64,000 bases of DNA from Streptomyces fradiae. GTDB lineage: Bacteria > Actinomycetota > Actinomycetes > Streptomycetales > Streptomycetaceae. Where the stretch lies: assembly GCF_041270065.1 (NCBI RefSeq), contig NZ_CP065958.1:5456001-5520000 (forward strand), written 5' to 3'. Both the position numbers and the translations under genes were made by a program. Below the pieces are notes generated by a model. It was not told the DNA's origin, ran no database searches, and saw only the letters and a list, made by a program, of their open reading frames with translations. Positions 3,396-51,846 of this stretch are shown here, piece by piece (the stretch's first letter is position 1; each line of letters begins with the position of its first letter).

Positions 3396-3417
3396 CACAC
3401 GCCTGGTCAGGCGTGTG
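3396..3417 (+). promoter_or_regulatory. Leader hairpin before RHS toxin A
   Basis: CACACGCCTG and CAGGCGTGTG form a perfect 10-bp stem with a 2-nt spacer, followed by T-rich sequence (CTCTTTGGTGTTTT). Copy B keeps an imperfect version. It could be a 5' stabilising hairpin or a terminator-like attenuator about 60 nt before the start codon. Confidence 0.4.
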
Positions 3418-3477
3418 CTCTTTGGTGTTTTCGCACCTCGTCCGTTGTCTGAATTGCCAGGGTGGGAGTCGACGCGT

Positions 3478-15352: not shown

Positions 15353-15631
15353 GGCGGTCTACTCCCGTGGGAACCATATGGATGGGGACAACACAGAGAG
15401 CCCCGGACGGCAAGCCGCGGGGCATAAGGCGCGCACACGATCACACATGTGAAGCATTGCGTCTACGCGTGAAGAATTTATGAATCCGTTACGCAAACAT
15501 GGAAGGTGCTTGACGAAGCGTCAACGAAGCCCGGTTCGCGGCATTTCGGGACCGTAATCGCCTGTGATGGGTCGACTTCGAATGATCTGTCTGGCGCGTC
15601 GTCACTGTGCCGGTCCGCGCGACTTCATCCC

Positions 15632-15645
15632 GTGATCGAGATCAC
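15632..15645. promoter_or_regulatory. Crp-like palindrome upstream of RHS toxin B
   Basis: GTGATCGAGATCAC fits GTGA-N6-TCAC. It is the counterpart of the site in copy A, with the half sites kept and the core changed. Confidence 0.5.
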
Positions 15646-15676
15646 TTATCCCGGCTTTACGTGGCTGCCGGCGATC

Positions 15677-15706
15677 TTGATAAGTGCCCGGAGCATGACA
15701 GAGAGT
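15677..15706 (+). promoter_or_regulatory. Candidate promoter of RHS toxin gene B
   Basis: TTGATA-N18-GAGAGT is conserved with copy A in sequence, spacing and distance to the start codon. Confidence 0.35.
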
Positions 15707-15795
15707 GCGCACGCACGCGCCTGAGCCAGACGTGTGCCTTTTGGTGTTTCCGCACCTCGTCCGTATCGAAGTTGCCAGGGTGGGAGTCGACGCGC

Positions 15796-21700: not shown

Positions 21701-23775
21701 AGCAGTGGCTGCCGCAGAACGACACCCGTCACATCTACGGCCCTGACGGCGAGCGCCTGCTGACCATCCAGGGCAAGCAGGCCACGCTGAACCTGGGCGA
21801 GGCGACGGTCACCGTCCAGCAGGGTGGTGTCCTGGTCCGCACCGAGCGCACCTACGCGAGCCCCGGCGGCGCGGTTCTGCGCTACGCCAACGGCACGGGT
21901 GGCGACGCGCTCAACGCGCTCGCCATGGACCACCAGGGCAGCGTGTACGCGGAGGTCGCCCTCTACACCGGCATGCCGGTGCGGGTGCGCAAGCAGGACC
22001 CGTTCGGCAACCAGCGTGGCGCCGACACGGCCGGTCAGAACCTCCAGAACCACAAGGGCTTCCTGGGGAAGGACCGGGACGACGCCTCCGGATTCCAGCC
22101 GCTGGGTGCTCGTCTGTACGACCCGGTGGTCGGGCGCTTCCTGTCCGTCGACCCGGTGCTCGACCTGAACGACCCGCTGCAGTCCAACGGGTACGCGTAC
22201 GCGCAGAACAACCCGGTCACGTATTCCGACCCGACCGGTCTCGCGATCAGCCTGACCGCTTCGGAGAAGGCTGCGGCCCTGGCCGGCGCGGGTCTGTCCG
22301 CAGCTCAGGTTGCGCAGGCGCAGGCGATGCAGGGCAAGTCCCTCACCTCGGTCATCCTGGCTGTGGCCTGGGAGACGTTGAAGGACTTCATCGGTATCAA
22401 CGACGCCATGGCCTGCTTCGGCGGTGACATGTGGTCCTGCGCGAGCCTCATCATCGACGCGATTCCGTGGACGAAGCTCGGCAAGATCCCGTCCGTCATC
22501 AAGGCGGTCAACCGCACCATCGACGCCATCAAGGCGTTCAAGGCGGCCAAGCGGGCGGCGGAAGCGGTCCTGAAGGCAGCCAAGGCCGCCGAGGCAGCCG
22601 CGCTGAGGGCCAAGAAACTGGCCATTGAAAAGGCCAAGAAGGAAGCTGCTCAAAGAGCCAAGAAGAAGGCGGCAGAAGCCGCCAAGAGACGAGCCGACGC
22701 AGCGGCCGCCGCGAAGCGGAAGACGGGTAACCCCGTCCACAAGCAGGCCCAGGCCAAGTCAGCACCGAAGTCCTCCTCCCACCCCGCATCCAGCAAGGGT
22801 GGCGGAAGCAAGAGCTCCGGCGGTGGAGGCGGCGGCAAGTCCGGCGGCTCCGCGCGTAGTAAGGGCGGTTCCAGCGGAAGCGGTGGCTCAGGCAAGGCCG
22901 ACGGCGGTGGCGGCGAGCGCGGCGACGGCGGCGGCGACGGCGAAACCTGCAACAGCTTCGTGCCCGGCACGAAGGTGCTGATGGCCGATGGCTCCACCAA
23001 GCCGATCGAGCAGGTGAAGGCCGGCGACAAGGTCGTCGCGACCGACCCGAAAACCGGGGAGACCCGGGTCGAGACGGTCACGGCCGAGATCAAGGGCCAG
23101 GGTCTCAAGCACCTGGTCAAGATCACGATCGATGTCGACGGCAAGACCGGTGAAAAGACGGCTCAGATCACCGCGACCGACGGTCACCCGATCTGGGTCC
23201 CCGAGCTCGGCGACTGGATCAAGGCCACCGACCTGAAGTCCGGCCAGTGGCTCCAGACCAGTAGCGGCACGCTTGTCCAGGTCACCGCGGTCCGGCGCTG
23301 GACGGCCCAGACCGCCGTTGTTCACAACCTCACCGTTTCCGACCTCCACACCTACTACGTGGCGGCGGCCAGCACTTCTGTCCTGGTTCACAACTGCGGT
23401 AGCGGAAGCTCCAACAGCGGTAGCTCAGGCAGCGGAGACAGCGGTGGCGGCAACAGCGCGGAGTCCTATTTCAGTGCCTACCCCAGGGAGTTTCTGGATC
23501 AGGCGGCGAAGTATGGCAAGGCTGGAGTCCGTGAGCTTCCGGATGGACGCTTCCGCTTCTACGGCGAGGTAGCCGTGGCTCGTACGCCCGGCGAGATGCT
23601 TGGGCGCCGGTTGGTTCGTGAGTGGAACCCTGCAACGGGCGCCACTCGCATCTGGCACGAGACTGTCGACCATGCCGGACGAGTGAGAATTGTTCGACCG
23701 GACGTGAACGTGACAGGCGGGACCAAGGTGCACTACGTGTTCGACGCCCTGGGCAATTTCACGGGTACCTTCTAG
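15796..23775 (+). CDS. Giant RHS/YD-repeat polymorphic toxin with HINT domain and unassigned toxin tip (copy B)
   Basis: The protein is 2,659 aa, with the same start context and domain order as copy A. An Arg-rich signal-like N-terminus is followed by YD repeats, an internal ricin-type lectin (from about residue 1845), the RHS core, an Ala/Lys coiled linker and a Gly/Ser linker. The HINT domain runs from S2387 (SFVPGTKVLM) through 'TDGHPIWVP' to 'VLVHN' at N2533. The 126-residue tip starts with a Gly/Ser spacer and then a compact domain rich in Arg and His (WHETVDHAGRVRIVRPDVN, then TKVHYVFDALGNF). This pattern recalls short ribonuclease-type bacterial toxins, but I cannot name the family with confidence. 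No HxE/CxxC deaminase motif is present. The chassis is probably homogenised with copy A while the tip was exchanged. The immunity gene starts 2 nt after the stop. Confidence 0.9.
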   Translation: MRASGPLSWLGRGRPALTESQRRRRRRSRAAIVLLLSSTLTVTSLGGQALAIPGPGMSREESISQVDLPDLPKNTEAAGDETADTKLSLAPQVPVDPYDPKNAVPWTAGVGTAPLEATDAPGTMKAVSGDLPIAIGVPEGGDPATLAGDWTVDLQTPVESQDAGVSGLIMKVTPPAGVDPAAQVALSVDTTGFADLYGPQAADRFGLVLLPDCVIDGMGVGDCEADPSTQTMAGSDGSETEGKFERLRSTVETVAAKDAPTHTKTAKSAKTRKIVTGTIPVGKLLAEDADSKAEGADGASANKASFKTAGATSGSGAVGMMDTGSSVSGDFTASPLLSSGAWSAGSSSGAFTYSYDVQVPETAGGLMPKISLGYSSQSVDGRTSASNNQASWIGDGWDYNPGSITRTYNNCRQDSKKAGSNNSTHRTPDLCWGSNNATLSLGGMTTELVWDATKNKWFTANGDGSKIEQVTGQSTGNGAKDGEYWIVTTKDGTKYHFGKNRLPGWSDKGTPDTADDDPTTKSVLTVPVYGNHAGEDCYQGPTVEDWKKSYCNQGWRWGLDYVEDVHGNAMTLWWDKDQNYYARNLYFKGPVVYDRDGWLDHIYYGQRKDNIFSATAPARVGFTVAERCLDAVKCTEANFTSKDPGNYRIWYDTPGDLRCEKAKMCWNAGPTFWSRKRLDKIQTSAQRRTDTEARQVVDVYQLKQSFAELRTGPNTALWLESVQRTGYARNGSTDASVSLNPVRFEPNAEDMPNRVKAYHPERPGFSRLRIARVINEYGGETIVTYKTPDANDPTGQTNDCATGQNLPSKTETAALKANTRLCYPSYWNPDPEVEDIDWFHKYVVESIEELPNVDGAFATKTAYAYKNPGWKLAEAEFTKKSTRTYSRFAGFEQTTVLTGTEDPAIGSKQSKAVTRFFRGMGDTVSVKDITGAEIAKDAEPFAGRIAEELTYSNATDADTDWLSRSITKPAATELARRDLGDGLSPLQAWRVTEPEEIAYTKSSGTNTDDPRTVRSVKTVTTYDSTYGLPTLVESLGDTGKSGDESCTKLEYLHETTKNLIGLSKQVLNSPTTCASANWADLSTLSGGARTAYDGTAYGTALGSTSRGLATESWLLNGAGTGFQTAGTTGFDAIGRVTRETDPDGKSSTLTFDPPTGQVFKVTTANSLGHTQVQELEPGRAVTLKTTDANNLVSEAVYDPMGRLAEAWAPGRTPGNGVPDFRAVYTIPAEETDPTDENIKIRKPPYVTTYSRGYEDRIETSVTLYDGLGRERQSLEEADNDAGYLVTDTLYNSSGEVWQTNNAYLTKEAKPGELFTPLSDTAIPNITRYTYDGLGRVLQETPYMKYVDPSTQETISRAYPERAVRYEYGEDWSKVIQPEGDSSYRVWTDALGRTTRTDTFNPAAPGGFTSTRYEYDSHGQPVKATASADPTHPWTWTYDHNGRMQTATDPDSGTTRTEYDARGRVLTTTNALGSKVWNGYDELSRPTQQREDSSTGKLLADFTYDTAPGGKGMPATATRYTDALAYTQKVNGYTKDYQPTSTTLSLPQSIVDTWGFAKDYTYDYAYSDNGMLNESTLPAVGKFASEKLVVRYNKDGKPVSISGKDWYGSETVYSPYGQVLRSTLGAQPYRVWTQNSYDEGSGELKEQSVYREKNDASLVGGNLVSNRAYTYDPAGNVTSIQEKSVGIEERQCFVYDPIGQLKSAWTSKDPATQNCTTPKNADGTLNVAAGPDASGYWQEYEYDLLGNRTKLTEKDLSGNTAKDAVSTYAYGKADGSQPHSLTKVSKTYTTPAGAQVTAEATRLYELTGETKSITSVQNGDKQDLTWTYDGKVDRITGQGTGGKTPYVGLGQKCLDLKSGLAAAGQPIQLYQCNATVAQNWRFTPAPGQTDANLGTLSVYDTWCVQPAANTAGSALQVQKCNGTTAQQVKRNASGQLTHVASGLCLAVQGAANVNGTAIVLATCDAAQAAQQWLPQNDTRHIYGPDGERLLTIQGKQATLNLGEATVTVQQGGVLVRTERTYASPGGAVLRYANGTGGDALNALAMDHQGSVYAEVALYTGMPVRVRKQDPFGNQRGADTAGQNLQNHKGFLGKDRDDASGFQPLGARLYDPVVGRFLSVDPVLDLNDPLQSNGYAYAQNNPVTYSDPTGLAISLTASEKAAALAGAGLSAAQVAQAQAMQGKSLTSVILAVAWETLKDFIGINDAMACFGGDMWSCASLIIDAIPWTKLGKIPSVIKAVNRTIDAIKAFKAAKRAAEAVLKAAKAAEAAALRAKKLAIEKAKKEAAQRAKKKAAEAAKRRADAAAAAKRKTGNPVHKQAQAKSAPKSSSHPASSKGGGSKSSGGGGGGKSGGSARSKGGSSGSGGSGKADGGGGERGDGGGDGETCNSFVPGTKVLMADGSTKPIEQVKAGDKVVATDPKTGETRVETVTAEIKGQGLKHLVKITIDVDGKTGEKTAQITATDGHPIWVPELGDWIKATDLKSGQWLQTSSGTLVQVTAVRRWTAQTAVVHNLTVSDLHTYYVAAASTSVLVHNCGSGSSNSGSSGSGDSGGGNSAESYFSAYPREFLDQAAKYGKAGVRELPDGRFRFYGEVAVARTPGEMLGRRLVREWNPATGATRIWHETVDHAGRVRIVRPDVNVTGGTKVHYVFDALGNFTGTF

Positions 23776-39682: not shown

Positions 39683-40417
39683 CTACAGCAGCTCCGCCGC
39701 CTGGCGCAGCAGCTTCTCGTAGATCTCCGGGCGGTCCTCGTCGATGTACGGGTAGCCCGTGCCGAAGCCTCCGTTGATCCAGCGGGCCCGGATGCCCGGG
39801 TTGGCCGCGTCCGTGCCGTCGTGGAGGAAGACGTGCGGGCTGCAGTTGACGCGGCCGTCGCGGGCCGAGTCGTACTGGGACATGATCGCCGGGCGGGCCG
39901 TGCCGCTGTCGAGGGCGGCGGCGAGGAGGTCGACGTCCACCGCGCCGGTCTCCTCCGCGACCTCCAGGATCACGTGGCGCTGCGAGATGCAGCGGCCCTG
40001 CGCCCAGAAGGCGCGGCGCAGGGCGCGGTCGAGCTGTTCGCTGGCGTGCCAGCTCTGGGACTTGGCCGCGTGGACGGCCTCCAGGGCGGGCAGGGTGGTC
40101 ACCGGGTAGGTCCAGTCCGGGCCCTGCCAGAGCTGCCAGCCGGCCTCGGGCTCCAGGGAGCCGAGGACGGAGATCTCCGAGTCGACGCCCGGGCGGGCGT
40201 TGACCTCGCGGTTGAACAGCTCCAGCGGGAAGGCCCGGAAGTCGAACCAGACCCTGCCCTCCAGGCCGAGCCGCCGCCGCGTCTCGTGCAGCCGGTGCAC
40301 GGCGACATGGGCGAAGGAGCAGTTGAGGTCGGTGTAGACGGCGATGGTGTCGGGCGCGGCGGGCAGCCGCGGGTCGGTGGTCGTCGTTTCGGGTACGACG
40401 TCGGGCGTGGATGTCAT
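39683..40417 (-). CDS. DsbA-like thioredoxin-fold protein
   Basis: The protein is 244 aa and starts at an ATG that overlaps the multicopper oxidase stop (ATGA). The fold is that of the DsbA/FrnE/2-hydroxychromene-2-carboxylate isomerase group: an early strand 'IAVYTDLNCSFAHVAVHRL', a helical insertion, and a late 'HVFLHDGTDAAN' segment. The usual CxxC is reduced to CSFA, so the second Cys is missing, and a dithiol oxidase role is unlikely. A glutathione- or mycothiol-dependent isomerase or reductase role is more plausible. It is the last gene of the seven-gene operon. No signal peptide is seen. The role in the pathway is unknown. Confidence 0.8.
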   Translation of the reverse strand: MTSTPDVVPETTTTDPRLPAAPDTIAVYTDLNCSFAHVAVHRLHETRRRLGLEGRVWFDFRAFPLELFNREVNARPGVDSEISVLGSLEPEAGWQLWQGPDWTYPVTTLPALEAVHAAKSQSWHASEQLDRALRRAFWAQGRCISQRHVILEVAEETGAVDVDLLAAALDSGTARPAIMSQYDSARDGRVNCSPHVFLHDGTDAANPGIRARWINGGFGTGYPYIDEDRPEIYEKLLRQAAELL

Positions 40418-43400
40418 GGGCCCTCCTCTACGCGGATCAGTCCCCACCAGCCCTCGCTGACACCCCAGTGCATGTTGCTGGTGCGGTACAGATGGTCGCC
40501 CGGATGCTGCGCCCGGAAGCGCACCGTCCGGGTGCTTCCGGAGGCCAGCGCGCCGATCGTCGACACGTACCAGCCGAGGCCGGTCTCCGAGGCGTCCCAC
40601 ACCTGCCCGTGCACCGTGAAGCCCTGGTTGCGCATCCGGTGCGAGCCGATCGCCAGATGGACGGCCACCTGGTCGCCGGGACGGACGGTCAGGAGCGGGG
40701 TCGGCGGCTCCGGGTCGGACAGCACCGGGTCGAGCGGGTGCAGGGCCGCGGTGCGGTAGTTGTACGCCTTCTGGCCGGCGTCGTCCGGGCTGTCCGAGAA
40801 CAGGTCGGTGACCGGCTGGGTGAGGTCGCCGTCGTGGTAGAGCCGCAGCCCGTCCTGCGTGACCAGGACCAGTTCCCGTACGGGTTCGGCGTGCGGCCGG
40901 CGGACCACGGCCCGCTCGCCGGTCCACCGCTCCCGGCCGGTGTCCGGGTCGTACGGCGTGGCGTCGGCCTCCTCCACGACGAGCACGCCCACCAGGCCGC
41001 GCCGCGGATGCGAGATCACGTCCGCGTGCGAGCGCAGCAGCACCACGCCCGGCTCGCCGGCGAACCAGCGGTAGGTCCGCGAGGATCCCGGCTTCACCGT
41101 CGAGTCGGAGTTGCGGCCGACGTGCGCGCCGTCGTCCGTCCGCACGTCGAAGTCGAGCAGGGTGGGGTGCAGCGAGACCCGGCCGGAGACCGTACGGGCT
41201 CCCGGGTCGGCCTCGTTCATCAGCCGCGGGTCCAGCGGGCTGGCGGGCGGCGGCCCGTCCAGCTCGTTCACGAGGGTGACCTCCACCCACTCGCCGGCCC
41301 GGCAGCGCAGCACCAGCGGGCCCTCCTCCGGGCCGCCGTCCCCCTCGGCGCTGAACACGAGCCCGTACGGGTCGGTGCGCAGCGGGCTGTACTCGATGAC
41401 CTGGGAACGGGCCCGTACGGTGTGCCGTCGCACCCGGCGGCGCGGCGGAAGCGGCACCGGTGCCGGCACCGGCGCCGGGTGCCCCGGCCTCAGCAGCGGC
41501 GGCAGGTCCGCCTGCGGGCGCTCGTGCAGCCGCAGCAGACCCCAGCAGCCCAGCCACAGGTCGTTGCCCGCGCTGAACGACCACAGGTGGTCGCCGGCGC
41601 TCAGCGTCGGGGCGAGCCGCATCTGGGCGACGTTCGAGATGCCGAAGGTCTGCTGGTTGCGCCAGGCGGTGTCATCCCGGCCCGCCCACTCCCGCCAGCG
41701 CGCCCCGGAGATCGTGAAACTGTGCTGGAGGTCGTGCGAGCCCTGCACGACGTGCACGCGCAGGTCCTCGCCGGGGTAGCCGCGAAGCAGCGGCGTGCCC
41801 GGGTCGCCGTGTTCGGCGCTGGAGAACCAGTGCGCCGGGTCCCCGCCCCGCTCGGACAGCGGCTCGCTGCGGTAGTTGACGCCCATCACGCCCTGGTCGT
41901 CGGGCGCGCCGGGGGCCGGCGGCGGATTGATCGGCCCGCCGTGGTCGCCGTGCCCGTGCCGCACCATCGGCACGAAGTCGCCGATGGCCAGGACCAGTTC
42001 GCGGTGCGACGTGCCGTCGGCGAGCTTGACGACCGCCTGCGTACCGCGCCGCAGCTCCTTGCCGTGATCCTCCGGCGACACCCAGGTCGCGCCCTCCGGC
42101 TCCGCCATCAGCGCGCCGAACAGGCCGTGCCGCTGGCGGTAGTTGGCGAGCAGATGGTCATGGAAGAGGACGGTGCCGAACTCCTCGTCCACGTACCAGC
42201 GGTAGGTCCACGAGTTGTACTGCCCGAACGCCTCCTCGCCCTGGTCGGCGGTCGTGGTCGCGGACAGGTAGTTCCAGCCCACCGCCGAGCCGTCGGAGAC
42301 CAGCGGGTCGTACTTCACCAGGTGGGTGTGCAGGCCGAGTTCGGGCTGGAAGGGCAGCGGCGCGTCGAACGCCGACTCCTTCTGCGGGCCGGGCGGCAGG
42401 GCGTTGGTGAGGGTGAGTTCCAGCACCTCGCCCTTGTTGGCGCGAATGACCAGCGGCTCCAACGTCCGCTCGCCCGCCGCCAGTTGCCGCTTGAACTGCT
42501 CCAGGCCGCCGGCCTCCTCGATCTCCTCGGCGAGGACGTAGAAGTGGGCGTTGTGGTCGTGCCAGGTCGTGGCGTGCTCGTCGGTCGGGTCCCCGTGGTA
42601 GTAGAGCGTGCCGTTGGTGACGACCAGGTGGAAGCGGCGTACGGGCGCGTCCGCCGGCCCGATCTTCGTGAAGGCCTCGCCGGGCTGCGGGTCGTCCACG
42701 AACGCGGCGAGCTCCAGGGGAGTGGGCTCCCGGCCCATGCCCGGCGGCTGGAGCGGGGTCCGCGGCGGCCGCGGGTTCTTCTGCGGGAAGGTCGCCGACT
42801 GGGTGATGAAGCCGGGGAAGCCGGGCCGCTCGGGCGTCGGCTCCGGCGGTGCCGCACGGTGGGGGAGCGGTACGAGCGCCTGCACGGGCCGCCCGTCGGG
42901 GTAGTGACCGGTGCCGTCCTGGAGGGTGTCGAAGATCCGGAACAGGCCCCACATGCCCATGTGGAAGTGGACGTACATGTGGCAGTGCCAGATCGAGTCG
43001 CCGACCGCGCCCTGCTTCGACCCGAGACCGCCGATGAGTTCGAGGGTCATGGCCTCCTGCGGGCCGATGCTGACGGAGTCGACGATCGGCGCGTTCTCGT
43101 CCTCCGCGCGCACCCGCCACTGGTGCAGGTGGGTGTGGAAGACATGAGTGTCGCGCATGCCGCCGTGGACAAGCCGGATCACGGTCGGGTCGCCGGAGTA
43201 GCCGCGCAGTACGGGCGTCGCCGGGTCGCCGAACAGCCAGGAGCTGTGGTGCATCTCCTCGCCGATCATGGCGTCGCGGACCGGGTCGATCTTCCCCTGC
43301 TCCAGGAGCTGGTGGTAGCGGTACATCCGCCACTCCATCGGCTCGATGCGGTGGTTGACCGGCAGCATCGCGTTGTTGAGCGGGGTGAGGTCGTCGATCG

Positions 43401-44259
43401 TGTCGGAGGTGCCGGGCCGGAGCGCCGGGGCGCCGGTGGCGGAGGGGCGGTAGATGCCGGTGTCGGCGGCCGGAGCGGAGGCGTCGGCCACGGCGGCGAG
43501 CGCGTGCCCTTCGTGCCCGCCCTCGCCGCTCCCGCCGCCGTGCCCGCCCCCGTGCCCCGGCATCGGCGGCGGCGTCACCGGGTTGTCGTTGCTCGGGTAC
43601 TCCATCATGAAGACCACGAACTCGCGGAAGCTGCGGTCCGGGAGGTGGACGTCCGCGTACAGGCCGGTGGCCAGCGGTCCGCCCGTCTCCGGGTCGGTCC
43701 AGGTCGCCTCCGGCGCCTCGACCACCACCGCGCCGACCATGCCGTGGCTCTGCGAGCCCTCGCCCCGCGCGTCGGACATGTCGCCGAAGTGGAACACGCC
43801 CTCGTGCTCGCACAGCCACTCGTACACCCGGGTGTCGCCCGGCGCCACGCTCGTGTCCGGGTTCGCGCCCGCCGCCAGGCCGTCCATCGTGCGCACGTCG
43901 TACCGCACACCCTGCAGGGTGATGCCGGCCCGCCGCGAGAGCTCGTTGGTCAGCCGCACCCGCAGCCGCTCGCCGCGCCGGACCCGCAGGACCAGCGGGC
44001 GGGCGAGCGGGTGCGGACCGGGCACCAGCTCGGGGTGTTCCAGATAGCTGGGGAACGGCTGCGGCCAGGAGGCCGCGAGCTCCCGCAGCTCCGGCGCGTC
44101 CGAGGCGAGCGTGTAGAGCGCGCCGTTGCGGTCGTGGTCGCCGAAGGCGTTGTACGCGATCGGGACGTTGAGGGCCACGACGTCGTACGTACGGACCGGC
44201 CGCCCGTGCTCGTCCGGGTGCCGCTCCGTCGCCGCCGCCGATGCTGTGCTGTTCGTCAT
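40414..44259 (-). CDS. Very large multicopper oxidase
   Basis: The protein is 1,281 aa, more than twice the size of a typical three-domain laccase, and appears to contain several cupredoxin domains in tandem. Copper motifs are clear: 'HVFHTHLHQW' (HxH), 'SIWHCHMYVHFHMGMWGLFRI' (the HCHxxxHxxxGM type 1/type 3 signature), and a second set 'TTWHDHNAHFYV' with 'VLFHDHLLANYRQRHGLFGALM'. A His/Gly-rich loop (MPGHGGGHGGGSGEGGHEGH) may collect copper. The C-terminal third keeps the fold but has lost most ligands. There is no signal peptide, which is unusual for this class. ATG 44,259 is chosen; the frame runs on upstream but only as overlap with the next gene. It is the sixth gene of the operon, and a one-electron or phenol-type oxidation is inferred. 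Confidence 0.88.
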   Translation of the reverse strand: MTNSTASAAATERHPDEHGRPVRTYDVVALNVPIAYNAFGDHDRNGALYTLASDAPELRELAASWPQPFPSYLEHPELVPGPHPLARPLVLRVRRGERLRVRLTNELSRRAGITLQGVRYDVRTMDGLAAGANPDTSVAPGDTRVYEWLCEHEGVFHFGDMSDARGEGSQSHGMVGAVVVEAPEATWTDPETGGPLATGLYADVHLPDRSFREFVVFMMEYPSNDNPVTPPPMPGHGGGHGGGSGEGGHEGHALAAVADASAPAADTGIYRPSATGAPALRPGTSDTIDDLTPLNNAMLPVNHRIEPMEWRMYRYHQLLEQGKIDPVRDAMIGEEMHHSSWLFGDPATPVLRGYSGDPTVIRLVHGGMRDTHVFHTHLHQWRVRAEDENAPIVDSVSIGPQEAMTLELIGGLGSKQGAVGDSIWHCHMYVHFHMGMWGLFRIFDTLQDGTGHYPDGRPVQALVPLPHRAAPPEPTPERPGFPGFITQSATFPQKNPRPPRTPLQPPGMGREPTPLELAAFVDDPQPGEAFTKIGPADAPVRRFHLVVTNGTLYYHGDPTDEHATTWHDHNAHFYVLAEEIEEAGGLEQFKRQLAAGERTLEPLVIRANKGEVLELTLTNALPPGPQKESAFDAPLPFQPELGLHTHLVKYDPLVSDGSAVGWNYLSATTTADQGEEAFGQYNSWTYRWYVDEEFGTVLFHDHLLANYRQRHGLFGALMAEPEGATWVSPEDHGKELRRGTQAVVKLADGTSHRELVLAIGDFVPMVRHGHGDHGGPINPPPAPGAPDDQGVMGVNYRSEPLSERGGDPAHWFSSAEHGDPGTPLLRGYPGEDLRVHVVQGSHDLQHSFTISGARWREWAGRDDTAWRNQQTFGISNVAQMRLAPTLSAGDHLWSFSAGNDLWLGCWGLLRLHERPQADLPPLLRPGHPAPVPAPVPLPPRRRVRRHTVRARSQVIEYSPLRTDPYGLVFSAEGDGGPEEGPLVLRCRAGEWVEVTLVNELDGPPPASPLDPRLMNEADPGARTVSGRVSLHPTLLDFDVRTDDGAHVGRNSDSTVKPGSSRTYRWFAGEPGVVLLRSHADVISHPRRGLVGVLVVEEADATPYDPDTGRERWTGERAVVRRPHAEPVRELVLVTQDGLRLYHDGDLTQPVTDLFSDSPDDAGQKAYNYRTAALHPLDPVLSDPEPPTPLLTVRPGDQVAVHLAIGSHRMRNQGFTVHGQVWDASETGLGWYVSTIGALASGSTRTVRFRAQHPGDHLYRTSNMHWGVSEGWWGLIRVEEGP

Positions 44260-44303
44260 CCTTGGTGAACTCCCCCGTGGTGATTGGTTGTTGTGCTGGA
44301 CGG

Positions 44304-45629
44304 CTAGTCGGGCGGGGCGGTTTCGGCGGTGCCGGTGCTGTGATCGAATTCGGCCACCACCCGGGTGCCGGAGAGGACCCGCCCCTTCCACGTGTACGTC
44401 TGGCCGAAGGGGCTCCCGTCGCGGCCCGCCGCCCGGGCCAGGGTCATCGCGATCCGGTCGCCGCGCCGCACCCGTACCGGCCGCCCGATCGGCAGATAGC
44501 AGTGCTTCCAGCTGTCGGAGGTGGTGCGGCCCGCGATGTCGTCGCCGGAGATGTCCAGCGAGACGGTCTCGGAGAGCCGGGCGGCGAAGTACCCCTTGAA
44601 GCCGGTGAGCACGCCGTCCCGCTGCACCGTGTAGACGAGCGGCACGTCGTACGAGGTCGGGGTGGCCTCCGGCCGCTCGGGCTCGTAGCGGCGGACCAGC
44701 CGGGGCGCGGCGAGATGCCCGGCGACCGGCAGGATCACGTCGTAGTACAGCGCGTACGGGTCCTTCGCGCCGCGCGCCGCGAGCAGGGCGGCGAACGCCT
44801 CCGGCCCGCCCGCGTCCCGCGGCCCCTCGCCGGTCAGCTGCGCGTGCGCCTCCTCGGCGGCCACCGGCACCAGGAAGCTGTCGACGACCCGCGGCAGCAT
44901 GAGGCCGCCGGGGCGCAGGAACCGTTCGCGGGCGTCGTCGAGGATCGCGGAGAAGTTCTCGTTGTCGGCGAGGTTCCCCATGATCTCGGAGATGACGATG
45001 TCGACCCGCTCGGGCAGCTCCAGGTCGAAGGAGAGGCCGAGAAGTGGCTCGAACCGGTCGGCGAAGCCGGCCGCGTCGAGCCGCTCGACCGCCGCGTCGA
45101 GGACCTTCTCGTTGAGGTCGATGCCGTAGACCTTGGCGGCCCCGGCCTCCAGGGCCCACATGGCCAGGATGCCGGTGCCGGTGCCCAGGTCGAGGACGGT
45201 GTCCCCGGGGCGTACGGCCTCGGTCACGGCGGTCTTGAAGGCCGCCATGCGCAGGTCGTCGCCGAGCATCAGCTCATGGAACTCCTCGCCCCAGTCGAGC
45301 AGTTGCTCCGAGGCGGGCAGCCAGACCTCCTCGGCCCGGTAGTAGCCGGGCCAGACGCCCGCCCGGTACACCGGCAGCGCGTCCTCGGTCGGGCCGCCGG
45401 CCGGGCAGCCGGTGGCCAGGTCGAAGGCGCTGTGGTGCAGCGGGCAGCTGATCCGCAGCGTCCGCGGGTTGACGTAGCCGTGCACGAGCCGGCCCTTGCG
45501 GTGCGGGCAGGAGGCGCCGACGACGAACTCCTGCCCGGCGACGCGGACCCGGAGCCGGTCGCCGGGGAGCTCTTCGAGGGCGGGCTCGCGGGGCGGTCCG
45601 GGGGTCCTGTTCTCATCGGGCGCGCTCAT
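44304..45629 (-). CDS. Fusion of an N-terminal Rieske domain with a PRMT-like methyltransferase
   Basis: The protein is 441 aa. Residues about 20-100 form a Rieske [2Fe-2S] domain: C41-P-H43 and C62-P-L-H65 give the CxH...CxxH ligand set. Residues about 110-441 are a SAM-dependent methyltransferase with motif I 'VLDLGTGTGILAMWALEAGA' and acidic 'GIDLNE'. The loop 'SEIMGNLADNE' resembles the double-E loop of protein arginine methyltransferases. The C-terminal barrel (SWKHCYLPIGRPVRVRRGDR, then IAM) is also PRMT-like. PRMTs bind guanidinium, and the operon appears to work on arginine-derived guanidines or 2-aminoimidazole, so methylation of such a group is plausible. What the Rieske centre does here is not known. 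The start overlaps the RohS-like stop (ATGA). Confidence 0.88.
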   Translation of the reverse strand: MSAPDENRTPGPPREPALEELPGDRLRVRVAGQEFVVGASCPHRKGRLVHGYVNPRTLRISCPLHHSAFDLATGCPAGGPTEDALPVYRAGVWPGYYRAEEVWLPASEQLLDWGEEFHELMLGDDLRMAAFKTAVTEAVRPGDTVLDLGTGTGILAMWALEAGAAKVYGIDLNEKVLDAAVERLDAAGFADRFEPLLGLSFDLELPERVDIVISEIMGNLADNENFSAILDDARERFLRPGGLMLPRVVDSFLVPVAAEEAHAQLTGEGPRDAGGPEAFAALLAARGAKDPYALYYDVILPVAGHLAAPRLVRRYEPERPEATPTSYDVPLVYTVQRDGVLTGFKGYFAARLSETVSLDISGDDIAGRTTSDSWKHCYLPIGRPVRVRRGDRIAMTLARAAGRDGSPFGQTYTWKGRVLSGTRVVAEFDHSTGTAETAPPD

Positions 45630-46525
45630 GCCACCGCCCCGCCGGCCAGCTCCCGAGCGCGGGCCACGGCCGCGTCGAAGGCGCCGCCGATCAGCCCGGA
45701 GAGCAGCCGGGCACCGGTCCACAGCCGCGCCGGATCGAGGCCGTGCGCCGCCTCGTACTCCTTGATGGCCAGCTGCATCTCCTGCATGTGGAAGGTGTCG
45801 ATGTGCAGGTGCTCGGTGTAGTAGCGGCCGTGCGCGATGCCGAGCCGCTCGCAGGCCCGCGCCTGGTAGGTGAAGGCGTCCGGGATGGAGGCCTCCAGAT
45901 AGGCGAGGGCGCCCAGGAAGTACTCGACGTGCGGGGCGCGCTGGGTGAGCCAGTAGAAGACGTTGAGGAACTGGAAGGTCTCGTCCGCGGTGGTGTCGAC
46001 GAAGTGCTCCGGCTCGGTCGGCAGACCCAGCTCGGCCAGGAGCAGCCGGTAGAGCTGGGAGTGCGCCTGCTGGAGGTTTCCGCAGCCGAACTCGTCGATG
46101 AGAACCCGCATCACCGCCATCTGGGACTTGATCGGCAGCCGGGGCACGGCGGGGAAGAAGTTCTGCGCCTCGGTCAGCCCGTCGAGCGCGAACTCCCGTA
46201 CCACCAGGGTGAATTCCTCGCGGGTCGCCTCGTCGGCCAGGTACGTGCCGGCCGGGCTCGGCTCGCGCTCCTCGGCGAGCAGCCCGTCGAGCAGCCGCTG
46301 CCAGGCGGCCCGGTCGGGCACCGGCTCGCCGGCCGCCTCGACCGAGTCGATCAGGGGCAGGATCCAGCCCTTCTCGATCTCCTCGACCCGCGCGAGCAGC
46401 CGGGAGTCGAGACGCGAACGGTTGAGTCGGAACAGCTCGCGGTGCGCCGATTCGGCGTCGGCCCCGGCCTCGCCGGGGCGGGGGCCGGGTATGCGGTCTG
46501 TCGTCGTGGTGGTGGCTGCCTTCAT
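45626..46525 (-). CDS. RohS-like haem-oxygenase-fold diiron N-oxygenase
   Basis: The protein is 299 aa of the iron-containing redox (HDO) family. The ligand pattern can be read directly: E119, E145, H155 (E-x25-E-x9-H), E211, and H239-x3-D243-x2-H246 (in YYTEHLHIDTFH). This is the layout of SznF-type N-oxygenases. In the azomycin pathway RohS oxidises the amino group of 2-aminoimidazole to the nitro group using O2. The neighbours match that pathway (PLP enzyme, DapA-like lyase, fourth small gene), so 2-nitroimidazole formation is the best guess. The diiron family also includes alkyl-chain and lysine-cleaving enzymes, so the substrate is not proven. It overlaps genes on both sides by 4 nt. Confidence 0.85.
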   Translation of the reverse strand: MKAATTTTTDRIPGPRPGEAGADAESAHRELFRLNRSRLDSRLLARVEEIEKGWILPLIDSVEAAGEPVPDRAAWQRLLDGLLAEEREPSPAGTYLADEATREEFTLVVREFALDGLTEAQNFFPAVPRLPIKSQMAVMRVLIDEFGCGNLQQAHSQLYRLLLAELGLPTEPEHFVDTTADETFQFLNVFYWLTQRAPHVEYFLGALAYLEASIPDAFTYQARACERLGIAHGRYYTEHLHIDTFHMQEMQLAIKEYEAAHGLDPARLWTGARLLSGLIGGAFDAAVARARELAGGAVA

Positions 46526-47319
46526 CCCCCGACCTCTCCCGTGTCCACGGTCCGGTCCGTCTCCAGCACACCGCGCTCGTAGAGCGCGGTCTTGACCCGT
46601 ACGTACCAGTCGTCCTCCTCCAGGCCGTACCGCTCCACGGCCTCGGTCAGCCGCGCGGCCGGGTCGTCGAGACGGCCCGCGAACAGGTCGGCGCACAGCG
46701 CCGGTTCGAGGTTGGCGAGCGCCACCACGTACCCGTCGACGGCCCCGGACTCGAGCAGCAGGTGCTCGAGACCGGCGTAGACGCGGGCGCCGGGCGCGGC
46801 CTCGACGAGCCGCCGGGTGAAGGCGGAGCTGCCGGAGGAGTCCTTGACGCCGACCACCGACGGCAGCTCGCAGATGCGCAGCAGCGTCTCGAAGTCGGCG
46901 CAGTTGTCGGCGACTTCGGTGCCGTGGTACGCGACGACCGGGAGCCCGGCGCGGGCGTCGAGCTCGGCGAAGTGGCGGTGGATCTGGTCCTGGCTGACGC
47001 CGGAGCCGTACGGGGTGGTGCTGACCAGCCCGTTCGCGCCGAGGTCGGCGGCGACCCGGGCCCGCTCCAGGACCTGGTCCGTGGTGGGGCGCAGCACGCC
47101 GGCGAGGACGGGCAGGCCGCCCGCGTGCTTCACGGTCGCCGTGAGCATGGCCTCCCACTGGCGGTCGGTCAGCCACCGGCCCTCGCCGGTGCTGAGGTTG
47201 GGCAGCAGGGCGTCGACGTGCGGACGGATGCTGTCCAGCAGCCGGGCGACCCCGCTCTCGGAGACCTCTCCGGTCTCCGAGAGCGGCGTCACCAGGGCCG
47301 CGATCACTCCCTGGAACAT
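46522..47319 (-). CDS. RohR-like retro-aldolase of the dihydrodipicolinate synthase family
   Basis: The protein is 265 aa, a (beta/alpha)8 barrel of the DapA/NAL superfamily. The Schiff-base Lys is K159 (VVGVKDSSGS) and the pocket Tyr is Y131 (VVAYHGTE). The early 'ALVTPLSE' and 'NLSTGEG' also match the family (the usual GTTGE is changed to STGEG). DapA-fold enzymes form or cleave bonds to pyruvate. In the azomycin route RohR cleaves 4-hydroxy-2-ketoarginine to guanidinoacetaldehyde and pyruvate. The gene lies between the RohQ-position gene and the diiron oxygenase, starting 1 nt after the former and overlapping the latter by 4 nt. A true lysine-pathway DapA is unlikely in this setting. Confidence 0.85.
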   Translation of the reverse strand: MFQGVIAALVTPLSETGEVSESGVARLLDSIRPHVDALLPNLSTGEGRWLTDRQWEAMLTATVKHAGGLPVLAGVLRPTTDQVLERARVAADLGANGLVSTTPYGSGVSQDQIHRHFAELDARAGLPVVAYHGTEVADNCADFETLLRICELPSVVGVKDSSGSSAFTRRLVEAAPGARVYAGLEHLLLESGAVDGYVVALANLEPALCADLFAGRLDDPAARLTEAVERYGLEEDDWYVRVKTALYERGVLETDRTVDTGEVGG

Positions 47320-47320
47320 C

Positions 47321-47878
47321 TCACGCTCCCTCGGGCAGGGACGGGGGAAGGGGCAGGCGCAGGGCCAGTGACGTGCGGTAGAGCCGCTCCAGCGGCTCGG
47401 GGAAGGAGGGCTCCGGCGCGCCGGCCGACCGGGCGGCCACCGTGCGGACCGGAAGCCCTCCGAAGGTGTCCAGGCGCGGGCCTGCGGTGTGGAGCAGGCC
47501 CTTGCGATGGATCACCTGGGCGAGCAGCAGCCGGTCGGTGAACGGCAGCCGCGCGGGCAGGCCGGAGTCCTCGGCGAGGGCGAGCTGCGCGTCGGCGGGC
47601 TCGTACCCCTCCCGGCTGATGTCCATGACCGTGTGGAGGTGGTCCATGAACGGGTAGTAGAGGTCCTGGAGTTCGCGCGAGTAGCCCCAGATGACGTCGT
47701 CGCAGCGACCCACCTGCTCCAGGCTCATCGTCACCCGCCCGCCGAGCCGTTCCACGAAGAACGCCTTGCAGGCGATGCGGATGTCGTCGTCGGCGCTGTT
47801 CATGCCGAGGAAGAGATCGGCGTCGATGAACGGCTCGGCGTCGTCGAGGGGTGTCGTGCTGGTCGTGTCAGCCGGCAT
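47321..47878 (-). CDS. Small protein in the RohQ position of the Roh-like operon
   Basis: The protein is 185 aa with no signal peptide or membrane segment. Its start overlaps the end of the PLP enzyme gene by 11 nt. Visible features are an acidic N-terminus ([20 protein letters not shown]), then '[20 protein letters not shown]', '[20 protein letters not shown]' and a Leu/Pro-rich C-terminus. The first strand with its Asp residues faintly recalls a PIN-like fold, but I would not assign nuclease function. In azomycin clusters the fourth enzyme, RohQ, helps close guanidinoacetaldehyde to 2-aminoimidazole, and this gene stands where such an enzyme is expected. The match is by position, not by a motif I can prove. 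Confidence 0.6.
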
Positions 47879-49034
47879 AGCGGTCCAGCACCTCCCGCAG
47901 GCGCTTCATCGCCCCGGCGAACATCTCCGGCTCGCGGGCCAGGGCCATCCGGATGTAGGGCTCGCCCTTGCCGGGCTCGTTCCAGAAGAAGAAGCGACCC
48001 GGCAGCACGTACACGCCCTCGCCGCGCAGTTCGCGCTGCAGCTCGGTCGCGGTCAGCTCGGGGTGCCGGATCTTCGCCCAGGCCACGCTGGTCTTGGCGA
48101 CCGGCTCCTGGTACTCCAGGATCGTGCCGGCCAGCGCCTCCTTGACCGCGGCCCGGTTGACGTCGAGGAGGTCGCGGACCGAGGCCATGCCGTCCTTGGC
48201 CGAGTTCTCTATGTACTCGGCCAGCATGTTGAGGACGAAGGGCGAGACGTTGAGCAGGACGCTGGTGTGCAGGTTGTACACGTCCTCCTTGATGTCGTCG
48301 CTGGCGGTGAGCATCGCGGCCTTGGCGTCCTGCACGGGCCAGGTCTTGCCGGTGTCCTCGATGACCAGGTAGCGGACGCCGGAGTCCTCCAGGAGCTCGT
48401 ACACGTCGAAGCGGGCGAGCTCCTCGTCGTACAGCGTGAAGGAGGCGAAGCAGAAGTCGATGACCAGGAGCTTGTCGTGGTCCTTGCAGTACCGGACGAC
48501 CTCCTCAAGGCCCCGGCGGCCGTGCGACATCAGGCTGAAGCCGGTGGGGTTGTTGGGGTCGACGAGGAAGAGCGCGTCGGTGCGGACCCGGCGCTTGAGC
48601 TCGGTGTAGATGCGGTCGACGTCGTGCAGCGCGGACTCGTCGATCGGGTAGAGCGGCACGCCCATGTTCGACAGCACGTCGTGCAGGTTGTCGAAGCAGG
48701 GCTCGACCAGGGTCACGGCCATGCGCTGCCGCTTGAGGTACATCGCGACGACCATGGTGGAGATGGACGCCGCGTACGACAGCAGCGTCTTGTTCTTCTC
48801 GAGCGCGGTGGGCTGGCGGTGGAGGCGGAAGAAGGCCTCGGTGAAACGCTGTTCGTAGGTGGCCTGGAGCCCTTCCTCGGCCTCGTACCACAGTTGCGGC
48901 AGCCGCTCGACGATCCCGTGCTGGGAGGCGGACTGGCGCTGGTGGGTGTGGGCGTCGGCGAGGTTGAACTCGGTGCGGAGCGCCTGGATCTCGTGCTGGG
49001 TCAGGTCCAGGAAGGTGTCGGCGTGCACGGTCAT
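47868..49034 (-). CDS. RohP-like PLP-dependent arginine oxidase (aminotransferase fold)
   Basis: The protein is 388 aa of fold-type I. Key residues are the PLP Lys K230 ([13 protein letters not shown]), the Asp that holds the pyridine nitrogen D193 ([10 protein letters not shown]) and the Asn in '[10 protein letters not shown]'. GGAGG lies 5 nt before the ATG. RohP and its relative MppP look like aminotransferases but use O2 to turn L-arginine into 4-hydroxy-2-ketoarginine. The operon context (DapA-like lyase and diiron oxygenase) supports that reaction rather than simple transamination. The N-terminus is polar, as in MppP, where it closes over the active site. This is the first gene of the seven-gene operon. 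Confidence 0.85.
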
Positions 49035-49235: not shown

Positions 49236-49525
49236 ATGTCCTACGGAACGGTGGAGTGAATGCGTCTGCGGGAGGAGGTCGAAGGGCTCCTGCCGGATCG
49301 CGTTACAGCCATGATTACCCCCGTAAACGGACTGCGGTCCGATTGGGGACTCTGTCACAGTCGGCGGCGGCGGTACAAGCGGCTCGCCAAGGAGTGGGCC
49401 ATCTTCTGGACGCCGGTTGCGCGATGGTCATATGGCCGTCGCACGATGGTCGGTTTGCGGTCGGACGGGGGCGGACGGGTGATCGGTCCGAGGGTCGGTC
49501 GGTGGGCGCTCCGTGCTCGGGTCAT

Positions 49526-49555
49526 GGCGCCACGGCGCCACGGCGCCACGGCGCC
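49526..49555. repeat. Short tandem repeat (GGCGCCAC)3.75
   Basis: Three 8-bp units plus 6 bp, in the leader of the TetR gene. No function is evident. Confidence 0.8.
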
Positions 49556-49644
49556 GCGACGGTCCGGCCTGGACCATTCCCCGTACACTGCACCTACGCC
49601 GCCCCCGCTCCGACATCCCCACGGAGAAAGAACCGAGGCCCCGC

Positions 49645-50271
49645 GTGCAGAACCTCTCGCCCGCGCCCTTGCCCTGCGCGCCCTTGCCCTGCGCCCTGCA
49701 CGAGCCGCCGGCCGAGCGCTCGGACGCCGCGCGCAACCGGCTGCGGATCCTCGCCGCCGCCCAGAAACTCTTCGACCGGCGCGGTGTGGCGAACGTGTCC
49801 ATGGACGCCATCGCCGCCGCGGCCGGCGTCGGCAAGGGCACGCTCTTCCGCAGGTTCGGCAGCAAGGCAGGGCTGGCCGCCGCCCTGCTCGACGCGCAGG
49901 ACAGCCGCCTTCAGGAGCGCATCCTGCACGGCCCGCCACCGCTCGGCCCGGGCGCTCCGGCGGCGGCGCGCGTCACCGCCTTCTTCGGCGCCTACCTGGA
50001 CCTTCTGGACGAGAACCTGGAGCTGGTACGGCTCTCGGAGACGGCCGCGCCGGGCGCGCGCTACCAGATAGGTTCGTACGCCTTCTGGCGCGTGCATCTG
50101 ACCATTCTGCTCCGCGAGGCTTGTCCGGATCTCGACGCCGACTGTGGCGCGCATCTGCTTCTCGCGCCCCTGGACTCCGACCTCCAGCACGCGCTGCGGA
50201 AGGGCGAGTTCGACGGCGAACGGATCCGGGGCGCGCTGCTCGCCCTGGTGGCCCGGATCACCGGCGCCTGA
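49645..50271 (+). CDS. TetR-family transcriptional regulator
   Basis: The protein is 208 aa from GTG 49,645; the frame continues upstream but only through repeat DNA. The N-terminal DNA-binding domain is typical: 'RNRLRILAAAQKLFDRRGV', then 'VSMDAIAAAAGVGKGTLFRR', then 'FGSKAGLAAALLD'. The C-terminal ligand domain is helical and includes 'FFGAYLDLLDENLELVRLSE' and 'REACPDLDADCGAHLLLAPL'. It diverges from the Roh-like operon and could control it, or an unseen target, through the TCCTAGG palindrome array. That link is inference. Confidence 0.92.
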   Translation: MQNLSPAPLPCAPLPCALHEPPAERSDAARNRLRILAAAQKLFDRRGVANVSMDAIAAAAGVGKGTLFRRFGSKAGLAAALLDAQDSRLQERILHGPPPLGPGAPAAARVTAFFGAYLDLLDENLELVRLSETAAPGARYQIGSYAFWRVHLTILLREACPDLDADCGAHLLLAPLDSDLQHALRKGEFDGERIRGALLALVARITGA

Positions 50272-50348: not shown

Positions 50349-50918
50349 TCAGTTCTCCTTGATCGCCTCGAGCTCCAGGGACAGCTCGATCTCCTTGGAG
50401 ACGAGGATGCCGCCGGAGTCCAGGACCATGTTCCAGGTCAGGCCCCAGTCCTCGCGGTTGACCTTGCCGTGGGCGGAGAAGACCGTACGGTCGTTGCCCC
50501 ACGGGTCGCGGGCGTGGCCCAGGTAGTCGACCTCCAGGGTCACCGGCTTGGTGACGTCCTTGATGGTGAGGTCGCCACTGAGCGTGCCGCGCTTGCCGTC
50601 CCAGGTCACCCGGGTGGAGGTGAAGGTGGCCTTCGGGAACTTCTCCACGTCGAAGAAGTCGCCCGAGCGCAGGTGGTCGTCGCGGGTCTGGTCGCCGCTG
50701 TCCACGCTCGCCATGTCGATGACGGCGGTGACCTTGCTGTCCTCCGGCCGCTCGCCGATCTCGATGGTGGCGTCGACGCCGGTGAACCGGCCGCGGACCT
50801 TGGTCAGCATGAAGTGGCGACCGAGGAAGCCGACCTCGGCGTGGCCCGGGTCGATCTTCCAGGTGCCGACGGCGGGCAGCTCCACGCCGTCGACGGTACG
50901 AGTCGGGGAAGTGGTCAT
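50349..50918 (-). CDS. YceI-family lipocalin-like protein
   Basis: The protein is 189 aa, a single YceI domain: 'GTWKIDPGHAEVGFLGRHFM', 'KVRGRFTGVDATIEIGE', 'SVDSGDQTRDDHLRSGDFFD', 'KFPKATFTST' and 'DYLGHARDPWGNDR'. The beta-barrel binds isoprenoid-like or other amphipathic molecules. There is no signal peptide, so it is cytoplasmic, unlike the periplasmic Gram-negative members. It lies 48 bp after the rhodanese gene in the same direction and is probably in one operon with it under the divergent MarR regulator. Its ligand here is unknown. Confidence 0.93.
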   Translation of the reverse strand: MTTSPTRTVDGVELPAVGTWKIDPGHAEVGFLGRHFMLTKVRGRFTGVDATIEIGERPEDSKVTAVIDMASVDSGDQTRDDHLRSGDFFDVEKFPKATFTSTRVTWDGKRGTLSGDLTIKDVTKPVTLEVDYLGHARDPWGNDRTVFSAHGKVNREDWGLTWNMVLDSGGILVSKEIELSLELEAIKEN

Positions 50919-50966
50919 GTCAGTCGCGTCCTCTGTTCGGAGGTCGGAGGTCGGAGACCGGCGGTC

Positions 50967-51296
50967 TCAGGCGCCGGACTCGGTCGGCAGGCCGGCCTCG
51001 ACCCAGTCGGCCTTGCCCTCGTAGTACTCGCGCACGTCGGTGTAGCCGAGCTCCACCAGACGCTCAGCGGCGATGCCCGAGTTGGGGCAGGGGCCGTCGG
51101 CGCAGTAGGTGACGATCGCCGCGTCCTTGTTCGGGAGCAGGGTCGGGGAGAGCTCGTCCACCTGGTCGAGCGGCAGGTTGAGGGCGCCGGGGAGGTGCTT
51201 GTCGGCGTAGTACGACAGCGGCAGCGCCTCGACGACCGTCACCAGGCCCTCGTCGATCTTCTTCTGCAGCTCGTCGCGGGTGATCTTCTGGACCAT
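50967..51296 (-). CDS. Rhodanese-like sulfurtransferase
   Basis: The single-domain rhodanese is 109 aa. The active-site loop is YCADGPCPNSG with Cys at the sulfur-accepting position, followed by the helix 'GIAAERLVELGYTDVREYYEG'. The N-terminal 'ITRDELQKKIDEGLVTVVEA' and 'HLPGALNLPLDQ' are standard. It may transfer sulfane sulfur or sense reactive sulfur or redox state. It is the first gene after the MarR operator region and is likely co-transcribed with the YceI gene. Confidence 0.92.
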   Translation of the reverse strand: MVQKITRDELQKKIDEGLVTVVEALPLSYYADKHLPGALNLPLDQVDELSPTLLPNKDAAIVTYCADGPCPNSGIAAERLVELGYTDVREYYEGKADWVEAGLPTESGA

Positions 51297-51319
51297 GTCC
51301 GTGCCTCCAGCATGAGTGG

Positions 51320-51366
51320 TTAATCAGTGCGTCCGCACACACATTAATCAATGCGTGCGCACGCAC
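51320..51366. promoter_or_regulatory. Duplicated MarR-type operators
   Basis: TTAATCAGTGCGTCCGCAC and TTAATCAATGCGTGCGCAC are direct repeats spaced 24 bp apart. The second contains the perfect palindrome TGCGTGCGCACGCA. They sit between the divergent rhodanese and MarR genes, where a self-regulating MarR protein would bind. Confidence 0.65.
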
Positions 51367-51390
51367 GCAAGTCCCGTTACACTCGTCCCT

Positions 51391-51846
51391 GTGAACGAAG
51401 GTGAGCACCGACTCGAGGCCTGGCGAGCACTGCTTCTCGCCCACAGCGCCGCCGTGCGCGCCATCGAGAGTGATGTGGCGCGCAACGGCACCATCCCGCT
51501 GACCTGGTACGACGTCCTCCTGGAAGTCAGGAGCGGCGGCGACCAGGGCCTGCGCATGCAGGAGGTCGCCGAACGGGTCGTCCTCAGCCGCACCCGGGTC
51601 AGCCGCCTGGTCGACGAGATGGCCCGATCAGGCCTGGTCACCAAGCGCCCGGACCCCACGGACAAACGCGTCACCTGGGCCACCATCACCGAAGCCGGCC
51701 GCGCCGCCATCCACGCCACGGCCCCCGCCTACATGGCCGGCATCTGGGAACACTTCTCCCGCCACCTCACCGACGACGAATCCACCACCATCGCGGAGGC
51801 CCTCTTCCGCGTGGCCCACGCCCAACAGGAACTCCGCCTGGGCTGA
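51391..51846 (+). CDS. MarR-family transcriptional regulator
   Basis: The protein is 151 aa from GTG 51,391. The winged helix-turn-helix core is clear: 'LTWYDVLLEVRSGGDQGLRM', 'EVAERVVLSRTRVSRLVDEM', 'ARSGLVTKRPDPTDKRVTWA', with the wing Asp-x-Arg motif (DPTDKR). The ends are helical and form the dimer. It probably represses itself and the rhodanese-YceI operon through the duplicated operator and responds to a small molecule or oxidant. Only one Cys-free core is seen, so direct thiol sensing is unlikely. Confidence 0.93.
   Translation: MNEGEHRLEAWRALLLAHSAAVRAIESDVARNGTIPLTWYDVLLEVRSGGDQGLRMQEVAERVVLSRTRVSRLVDEMARSGLVTKRPDPTDKRVTWATITEAGRAAIHATAPAYMAGIWEHFSRHLTDDESTTIAEALFRVAHAQQELRLG

Follow-up and report, generated by a model that had tools for sequence, protein, structure and literature searches.

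Seven leftward genes of Streptomyces fradiae (assembly GCF_041270065.1) appear, judging by their sequences and order, to form an azomycin (roh) locus of a methyltransferase-bearing clade, in which the genes for a known antibiotic are joined by additions specific to that clade. They occupy positions 39,683 to 49,034 of the window, by which we mean the whole 64,000-nucleotide stretch that was analysed (contig NZ_CP065958.1, positions 5,456,001 to 5,520,000, in a 7.88 Mb single-contig genome). The first four genes encode, by sequence and order, the azomycin-pathway proteins RohP, RohQ, RohR and RohS, and are followed by a gene that fuses a Rieske domain to a protein arginine methyltransferase (PRMT)-fold domain, a gene for a large MnxG-like multicopper oxidase, and a gene for an FrnE-like protein of the DsbA fold. 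The reading that we favour, and consider somewhat probable, is that of a roh locus with azomycin as its main product, in which the Rieske domain serves as an electron donor, the FrnE-like protein is protective, and the methyltransferase and oxidase are additions. Homology grounds the predicted core product well, as linkage does the putative Rieske role; the candidate methyltransferase and oxidase are the interesting part.

Locus organization

All seven minus-strand frames were open, with plausible starts, and were spaced, from rohP to the FrnE-like gene, by −11, +1, −4, −4, +44 and −4 bases; since this spacing is so tight, the genes likely form a single transcript. Pfam calls in gene order were Aminotran_1_2, DUF6190, DHDPS, Haem_oxygenas_2, Rieske with methyltransferase and PRMT5_C, Cu-oxidase and DSBA. 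Both the coordinates and the domain identities agreed with an initial annotation, made from the sequence alone, that had described seven leftward genes, overlapping or closely spaced.

For comparison, 22 of 295 Streptomyces genomes carried RohQ (PF19689), as did six of 345 genomes of a class sample, two of them already among the genus set. Neighbourhoods were read in 21 other genus genomes, in four new class-sample genomes and at five loci (L051–L055) from a methyltransferase-based contig scan, giving 30 loci; the last five bear the methyltransferase by construction. That scan gave at least 79 loci, 14 of which were checked for roh genes, five with a positive result. The genome searches score few candidates per genome at first look, so absences are soft.

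The seven parts recurred in identical order at four loci (L049, L050, L051 and L053), which argues that the gene order is not due to chance. A further locus (L047) carried the first six parts until its contig end, and the other end of the oxidase and the DsbA-like gene lay on a second contig of the same genome (L177); at L052 no rohQ match was found, and the contig stopped within the oxidase.

Core azomycin genes

The product of rohP (47,868 to 49,034, minus strand, as are all seven genes; 388 aa) is a predicted O2- and pyridoxal phosphate (PLP)-dependent arginine oxidase. In a comparison with solved structures, it scored 671 bits to PDB chain 6c3a, 222 bits to MppP and about 30 bits or less to ordinary aminotransferases, placing it closer to 6c3a than to either. 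The chain itself is named only "Uncharacterized protein"; we take it to be RohP of S. cattleya. The rohQ gene (47,321 to 47,878; 185 aa), whose product matched PF19689 (DUF6190) at 208 bits and is a cyclodehydratase by homology, lay between rohP and rohR in 21 genus loci. The rohR gene (46,522 to 47,319; 265 aa) encodes a putative DapA-fold retro-aldolase (PF00701, DHDPS, 95 bits), whose best segment was 41–83% identical to its positional counterpart at the 21 genus loci and 33–56% identical at the five loci L051–L055. The best other DapA-fold match within its own genome reached only 71 bits and 32% identity. Finally, rohS (45,626 to 46,525; 299 aa) encodes a predicted haem-oxygenase-like diiron N-oxygenase (PF14518, Haem_oxygenas_2, 119 bits), which scored 198 bits to 9pfw and 193 bits to 9pfx, PbrRohS, and only 46 bits to SznF.

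The homologues of RohQ, RohR and RohS are contiguous with rohP in the order P-Q-R-S. Sequence and order together support the assignment of the first four genes to an azomycin-type Roh set, as had been proposed, and the scores of RohP and RohS against solved relatives and the DUF6190 match of RohQ bear this out. An ordinary aminotransferase accompanied by an ordinary DapA was ruled out by the RohP scores and by the distance of RohR from the other DapA-fold proteins of the genome.

In the available part of PMC10724926, L-arginine is converted to 2-aminoimidazole by RohP, RohR and RohQ, with RohQ as the cyclodehydratase, and RohS makes azomycin in the presence of phenazine methosulfate (PMS), NADH and iron. 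The initial annotation had credited azomycin synthesis to S. cattleya; the accessible text of PMC12713392 instead gives rohPQRST as the cluster of S. eurocidicus, and reports that Pseudomonas DF41 makes no azomycin once the cluster is deleted. Azomycin from a Streptomyces is also reported in PMC12511057, in the available part of which no mention of roh, a genome or a gene cluster was found.

Distribution of the additional genes

Among the 25 loci chosen independently of the methyltransferase, eight carried a PRMT-type methyltransferase, and three of these also carried the oxidase. Within the genus sample, the window included, the methyltransferase was present in nine and the oxidase in four of the 22 roh genomes. 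In a quick tree of RohP, RohR and RohS (31 rows), the 12 methyltransferase-bearing loci of actinobacteria grouped apart (SH-aLRT 100), as did the 17 loci free of the methyltransferase (SH-aLRT 94, below the 95 at which a branch was starred). This tree nested the oxidase-free group among oxidase-bearing loci, whereas the methyltransferase tree did not; because the two place that group differently, the oxidase may either have arisen by a single gain or have been lost from this group.

Rieske domain

The fifth gene (44,304 to 45,629) encodes a Rieske [2Fe-2S] domain (approximately residues 17–90; PF00355, 35 bits; motif CPH...CPLH) fused to the PRMT-fold domain (approximately residues 97–435). 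A Rieske CxH...CxxH motif immediately downstream of rohS, which is an observation of the present survey rather than a published definition, was present in 29 of the 30 other loci as well as in the window; at the remaining locus (L036), Rieske pieces lay in different frames after rohS. Because the motif follows rohS at 29 loci and is frame-broken at the thirtieth, the Rieske half of the gene belongs to the core of the pathway, most likely as the electron donor to RohS. Such a role would fit the use of PMS and NADH as an artificial electron source in the RohS assay (PMC10724926, available part).

The gene architecture around the Rieske domain varied among loci. The fusion was found in the window and at eight genus loci, one of which (G009) had a TGA inside its match, and in gammaproteobacterial and Burkholderia database proteins, so that it is not peculiar to this strain. 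In S. albireticuli (L051), a Rieske gene (96 aa) and a methyltransferase gene (361 aa) stand separately, and at L052–L055 the Rieske-motif frame stops before the methyltransferase. One frame of 668 aa (L045, 5792 to 7798) combined Rieske, methyltransferase and FrnE-like domains. A genuine triple fusion there is weakened by a methyltransferase match that covers only query residues 13–374 and by a long branch, which make a frameshift likely.

At the methyltransferase-free locus L032, the Rieske gene stands alone, and genes for an NCS1 permease and a Fer2/NAD-binding reductase come after it. Anywhere in the stretches read, relatives of the permease were present at 13 and relatives of the reductase at 10 of the 17 methyltransferase-free loci. 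In the closest group of 11 (L031–L033, L036, L038, L039, L042–L044, L046 and L134), the counts were 11 and 10, respectively. The simplest reading of this arrangement is a small electron chain leading to RohS.

FrnE-like protein

The last gene (39,683 to 40,417; 244 aa; PF01323, 45 bits) encodes a protein of the FrnE/DsbA fold in which CSFAH, with its single cysteine, replaces CXXC. Foldseek searches with a predicted model (mean pLDDT, the predicted local distance difference test, 81.7) returned FrnE of D. radiodurans first, followed by a DsbA-like protein, 2-hydroxychromene-2-carboxylate (HCCA) isomerase, kappa-class glutathione transferase, DsbM and others. CSFAH and CSPH, the latter holding a second invariant Cys, were invariant in all 17 aligned roh-locus copies, and a CXXC active site was found in none of the 17. 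The DsbA-like gene was thereby ruled out as a CXXC disulfide reductase.

An FrnE-like gene was present in the stretch read at 25 of 28 actinobacterial roh loci, among them methyltransferase-free ones; L047 and L052 reach contig ends before its position. Across the genus, copies of at least 279 bits occurred in 24 of 295 genomes, of which 21 belong to the 22 roh genomes and three have no roh. In these three roh-free genomes (L173, L174 and L175), a CSFAH-type FrnE-like gene stands with relatives of a TetR gene and of a YdcZ exporter, and no roh genes were found within the 20 kb read; at L174, a relative of an ODP-type metallo-beta-lactamase was also present. Because the protein has no CXXC, occurs at methyltransferase-free roh loci and stands beside TetR and exporter genes in three roh-free genomes, it is probably not a tailoring enzyme but a means of thiol-dependent self-protection against a reactive product. 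The TetR, YdcZ and FrnE-like genes of L173–L175 could form a stand-alone protection module. At the two proteobacterial roh loci, a glutathione transferase gene precedes rohP and may be a counterpart of the FrnE-like gene. Two roh loci outside the genus (L135 and L136) carried two FrnE-like genes each, 59–60% and about 73% identical to that of the window.

PRMT-fold methyltransferase domain

PRMTs are marked by a S-adenosylmethionine (SAM) motif, a double-E loop and a THW loop. Both DLGTGTG and the two Glu residues of the double-E loop (SE...E) were invariant in 18 of 18 aligned proteins, and the double-E pattern was kept in 13 of 13 methyltransferase-bearing loci. THW was not seen; that part of the protein holds an invariant SxSWKH, and its alignment to PRMTs is too weak to place this motif. 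With a predicted model (mean pLDDT 83.6), the best Foldseek matches were PRMT5, PRMT6 and PRMT1, which covered the greater part of the domain. The modelled PRMT fold includes the C-terminal barrel, with a template modelling (TM) score by target length of up to 0.81 with PRMT1 and PRMT8. The fold would suit the roh pathway, since roh substrates all carry a guanidine or a cyclic guanidine.

Strong matches (at least 541 bits) were found in nine of the 295 Streptomyces genomes, all nine among the 22 with roh. The other genus matches to the fusion were a Rieske gene only (G263) and weak ones of 85 to 104 bits in seven genomes. In the class sample, the window's own genome was the sole methyltransferase match at 1e-30. 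The protein database held many related methyltransferases without a Rieske domain, and in K. azatica a PRMT protein (P0039) was 66% identical over 76% of the query.

MnxG-like multicopper oxidase

The sixth gene (40,414 to 44,259) encodes a protein of 1281 aa whose nearest solved structure was MnxG (9bxa, 710 bits). It scored 210.7 bits on the NCBIfam MnxG model, far below the cut-off of 3100, for which reason we do not call it MnxG. Its motifs are those of a catalytic multicopper oxidase: the four HxH motifs and the HCHxxxHxxxxM (type 1) site were kept in all 20 of the closest sequences in an alignment of 117 homologues, and mostly also in the remaining 97, the type 1 Cys, for instance, in 92. 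No signal peptide was seen on inspection by eye.

MnxG-type matches occurred in six of the 295 genus genomes, four of them in roh loci. In the other two, G086 and G263 (L157, L158, L163 and L164), a copper oxidase about 55–57% identical to that of the window stands away from roh, which in G263 lies on another contig. These copies indicate that the oxidase family has other roles.

Neighbouring genes

Divergent from the seven genes, a TetR-family regulator (49,513 to 50,271, plus strand; PF00440, 60 bits) has an uncertain start, its TetR domain beginning at residue 79. It possibly regulates the cluster, and TetR-like genes lay near roh in several architectures. Genes for YceI, rhodanese and MarR proteins (50,349 to 51,846) adjoin the cluster; among the 21 genus loci, relatives of the YceI and MarR genes were present at eight of eight methyltransferase-bearing and at none of 13 other loci. 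Farther away, the window holds two very long plus-strand frames (3415 to 11,556, 2713 aa; 15,607 to 23,775, 2722 aa), which flank a minus-strand frame of 1052 aa.

Proposed pathway and alternatives

In the pathway that we favour, RohP, RohR and RohQ would convert L-arginine to 2-aminoimidazole and RohS would carry this on to 2-nitroimidazole, as is known for their homologues. The Rieske domain would pass electrons to the RohS diiron site, as its near-universal linkage suggests, and the FrnE-like protein would afford thiol-based protection. The PRMT-fold domain would most likely N-methylate a guanidine-type pathway molecule, either 2-aminoimidazole or an intermediate that precedes it. The MnxG-like oxidase may act as a clade-specific oxidant. 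Azomycin would be expected as the main product, perhaps with a methylated companion.

Several points weigh against this proposal. Electron transfer from the Rieske domain to RohS is read from gene neighbourhood alone, and seven of the 17 methyltransferase-free loci had no reductase relative; if the electron chain holds, these must draw on a reductase from elsewhere. One roh-positive locus (L030) lacked an FrnE-like gene on its contig. The three roh-free loci L173–L175 could be remnants of lost roh clusters, and a fourth, weaker copy (G219, L176, 241 bits) had neither CSFAH nor a TetR or YdcZ relative nearby. Finally, the Rieske-PRMT fusion is left unaccounted for, and the oxidase is given no substrate.

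The initial annotation had assigned all of the last three genes to tailoring of the product. That view has to be narrowed: the Rieske half falls to the core and the DsbA-like protein, with no CXXC, looks protective, which leaves the PRMT-fold domain and the MnxG-like oxidase as the only tailoring candidates.

A product other than azomycin is possible. The same annotation had in effect made azomycin a mere intermediate, on which, or on 2-aminoimidazole, the PRMT domain and the oxidase would act to yield a separate end product, methylated or oxidatively coupled. The PRMT domain does keep its SAM motif and double-E loop and the oxidase its copper motifs, and both are closely packed with the roh genes in a single run, in Streptomyces as well as at a Pseudonocardiales locus. 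The S. albireticuli locus, however, has the same parts, and we take this species to be close to the classical azomycin producer S. eurocidicus; the extra genes alone are therefore weak evidence for an undescribed product. Moreover, five of the eight methyltransferase-bearing genus loci have no oxidase, and P0039 comes from K. azatica, the RohS of which produces azomycin in vitro (PMC10724926, available part). We consider this alternative rather unlikely.

By analogy with streptozotocin, a guanidine nitrogen might be methylated before or during N-oxygenation, which would give an undescribed N-methylated or copper-oxidized nitro-, nitroso- or azo-imidazole, and the Rieske domain would feed electrons to RohS in one complex with the methyltransferase; this we regard as doubtful. 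A quite improbable option is that the two proteins serve the machinery, the PRMT modifying RohS or another protein and the oxidase handling Mn, Fe, Cu or oxygen for the RohS cofactor. The fusion of the PRMT to the likely electron donor would fit such a role, as would the fact that the solved structure nearest to the oxidase is that of the manganese oxidase MnxG, but the 17 methyltransferase-free loci manage without PRMT and oxidase, and the published in vitro route to azomycin uses only P, R, Q and S (PMC10724926, available part). That the locus is decayed or silent, with no product, is barely credible given its seven open frames, tight spacing and conserved motifs in gene 5 and the oxidase.

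Comparison with known systems

The closest described arrangement is rohPQRST of S. eurocidicus and Pseudomonas (PMC12713392, accessible text), in which a fifth gene likewise follows P, Q, R and S. In the window, by contrast, the Rieske domain shares its gene with a PRMT domain, and the copper oxidase and FrnE-like genes follow; from its position, the Rieske half is probably RohT. MppP, the PLP-dependent arginine hydroxylase of enduracididine synthesis, shares the fold and family of the window's RohP, which nevertheless scored 200 of 450 bits on the NCBIfam MppP model and matched MppP at 222 bits against 671 for 6c3a. Streptozotocin synthesis likewise pairs a PRMT-like enzyme, SznE, with a haem-oxygenase-like N-oxygenase on an arginine-derived guanidine. 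The latter enzyme, SznF (PMC13274452, available part), has a cupin domain according to its PDB title, none is shown in RohS, and only 46 bits connect the two. The oxidase belongs to the same large multicopper oxidase family as MnxG, and its HCHxxxHxxxxM motif is complete; in 9bxa, the second His is replaced by Ala. The last protein has a fold in common with FrnE, kappa-class glutathione transferase and HCCA isomerase, but differs from these relatives in its CSFAH for CXXC and in the extra invariant Cys of CSPH.

Open-access literature searches combining azomycin with Rieske or with multicopper oxidase returned nothing on these genes, as did azomycin with methyltransferase and gene cluster in the part of the results available. 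Among the matches listed for RohT, none was on azomycin by title, and none was found for S. albireticuli with azomycin.

Should the Rieske domain prove to donate electrons to RohS, it would be the missing partner of an enzyme that was assayed with PMS and NADH (PMC10724926, available part). The occurrence of FrnE-like, TetR and YdcZ genes together in roh-free genomes suggests a protection module. If the PRMT-fold domain methylates 2-aminoimidazole or an intermediate, an arginine methyltransferase fold would be used on a small molecule in nitroimidazole synthesis.

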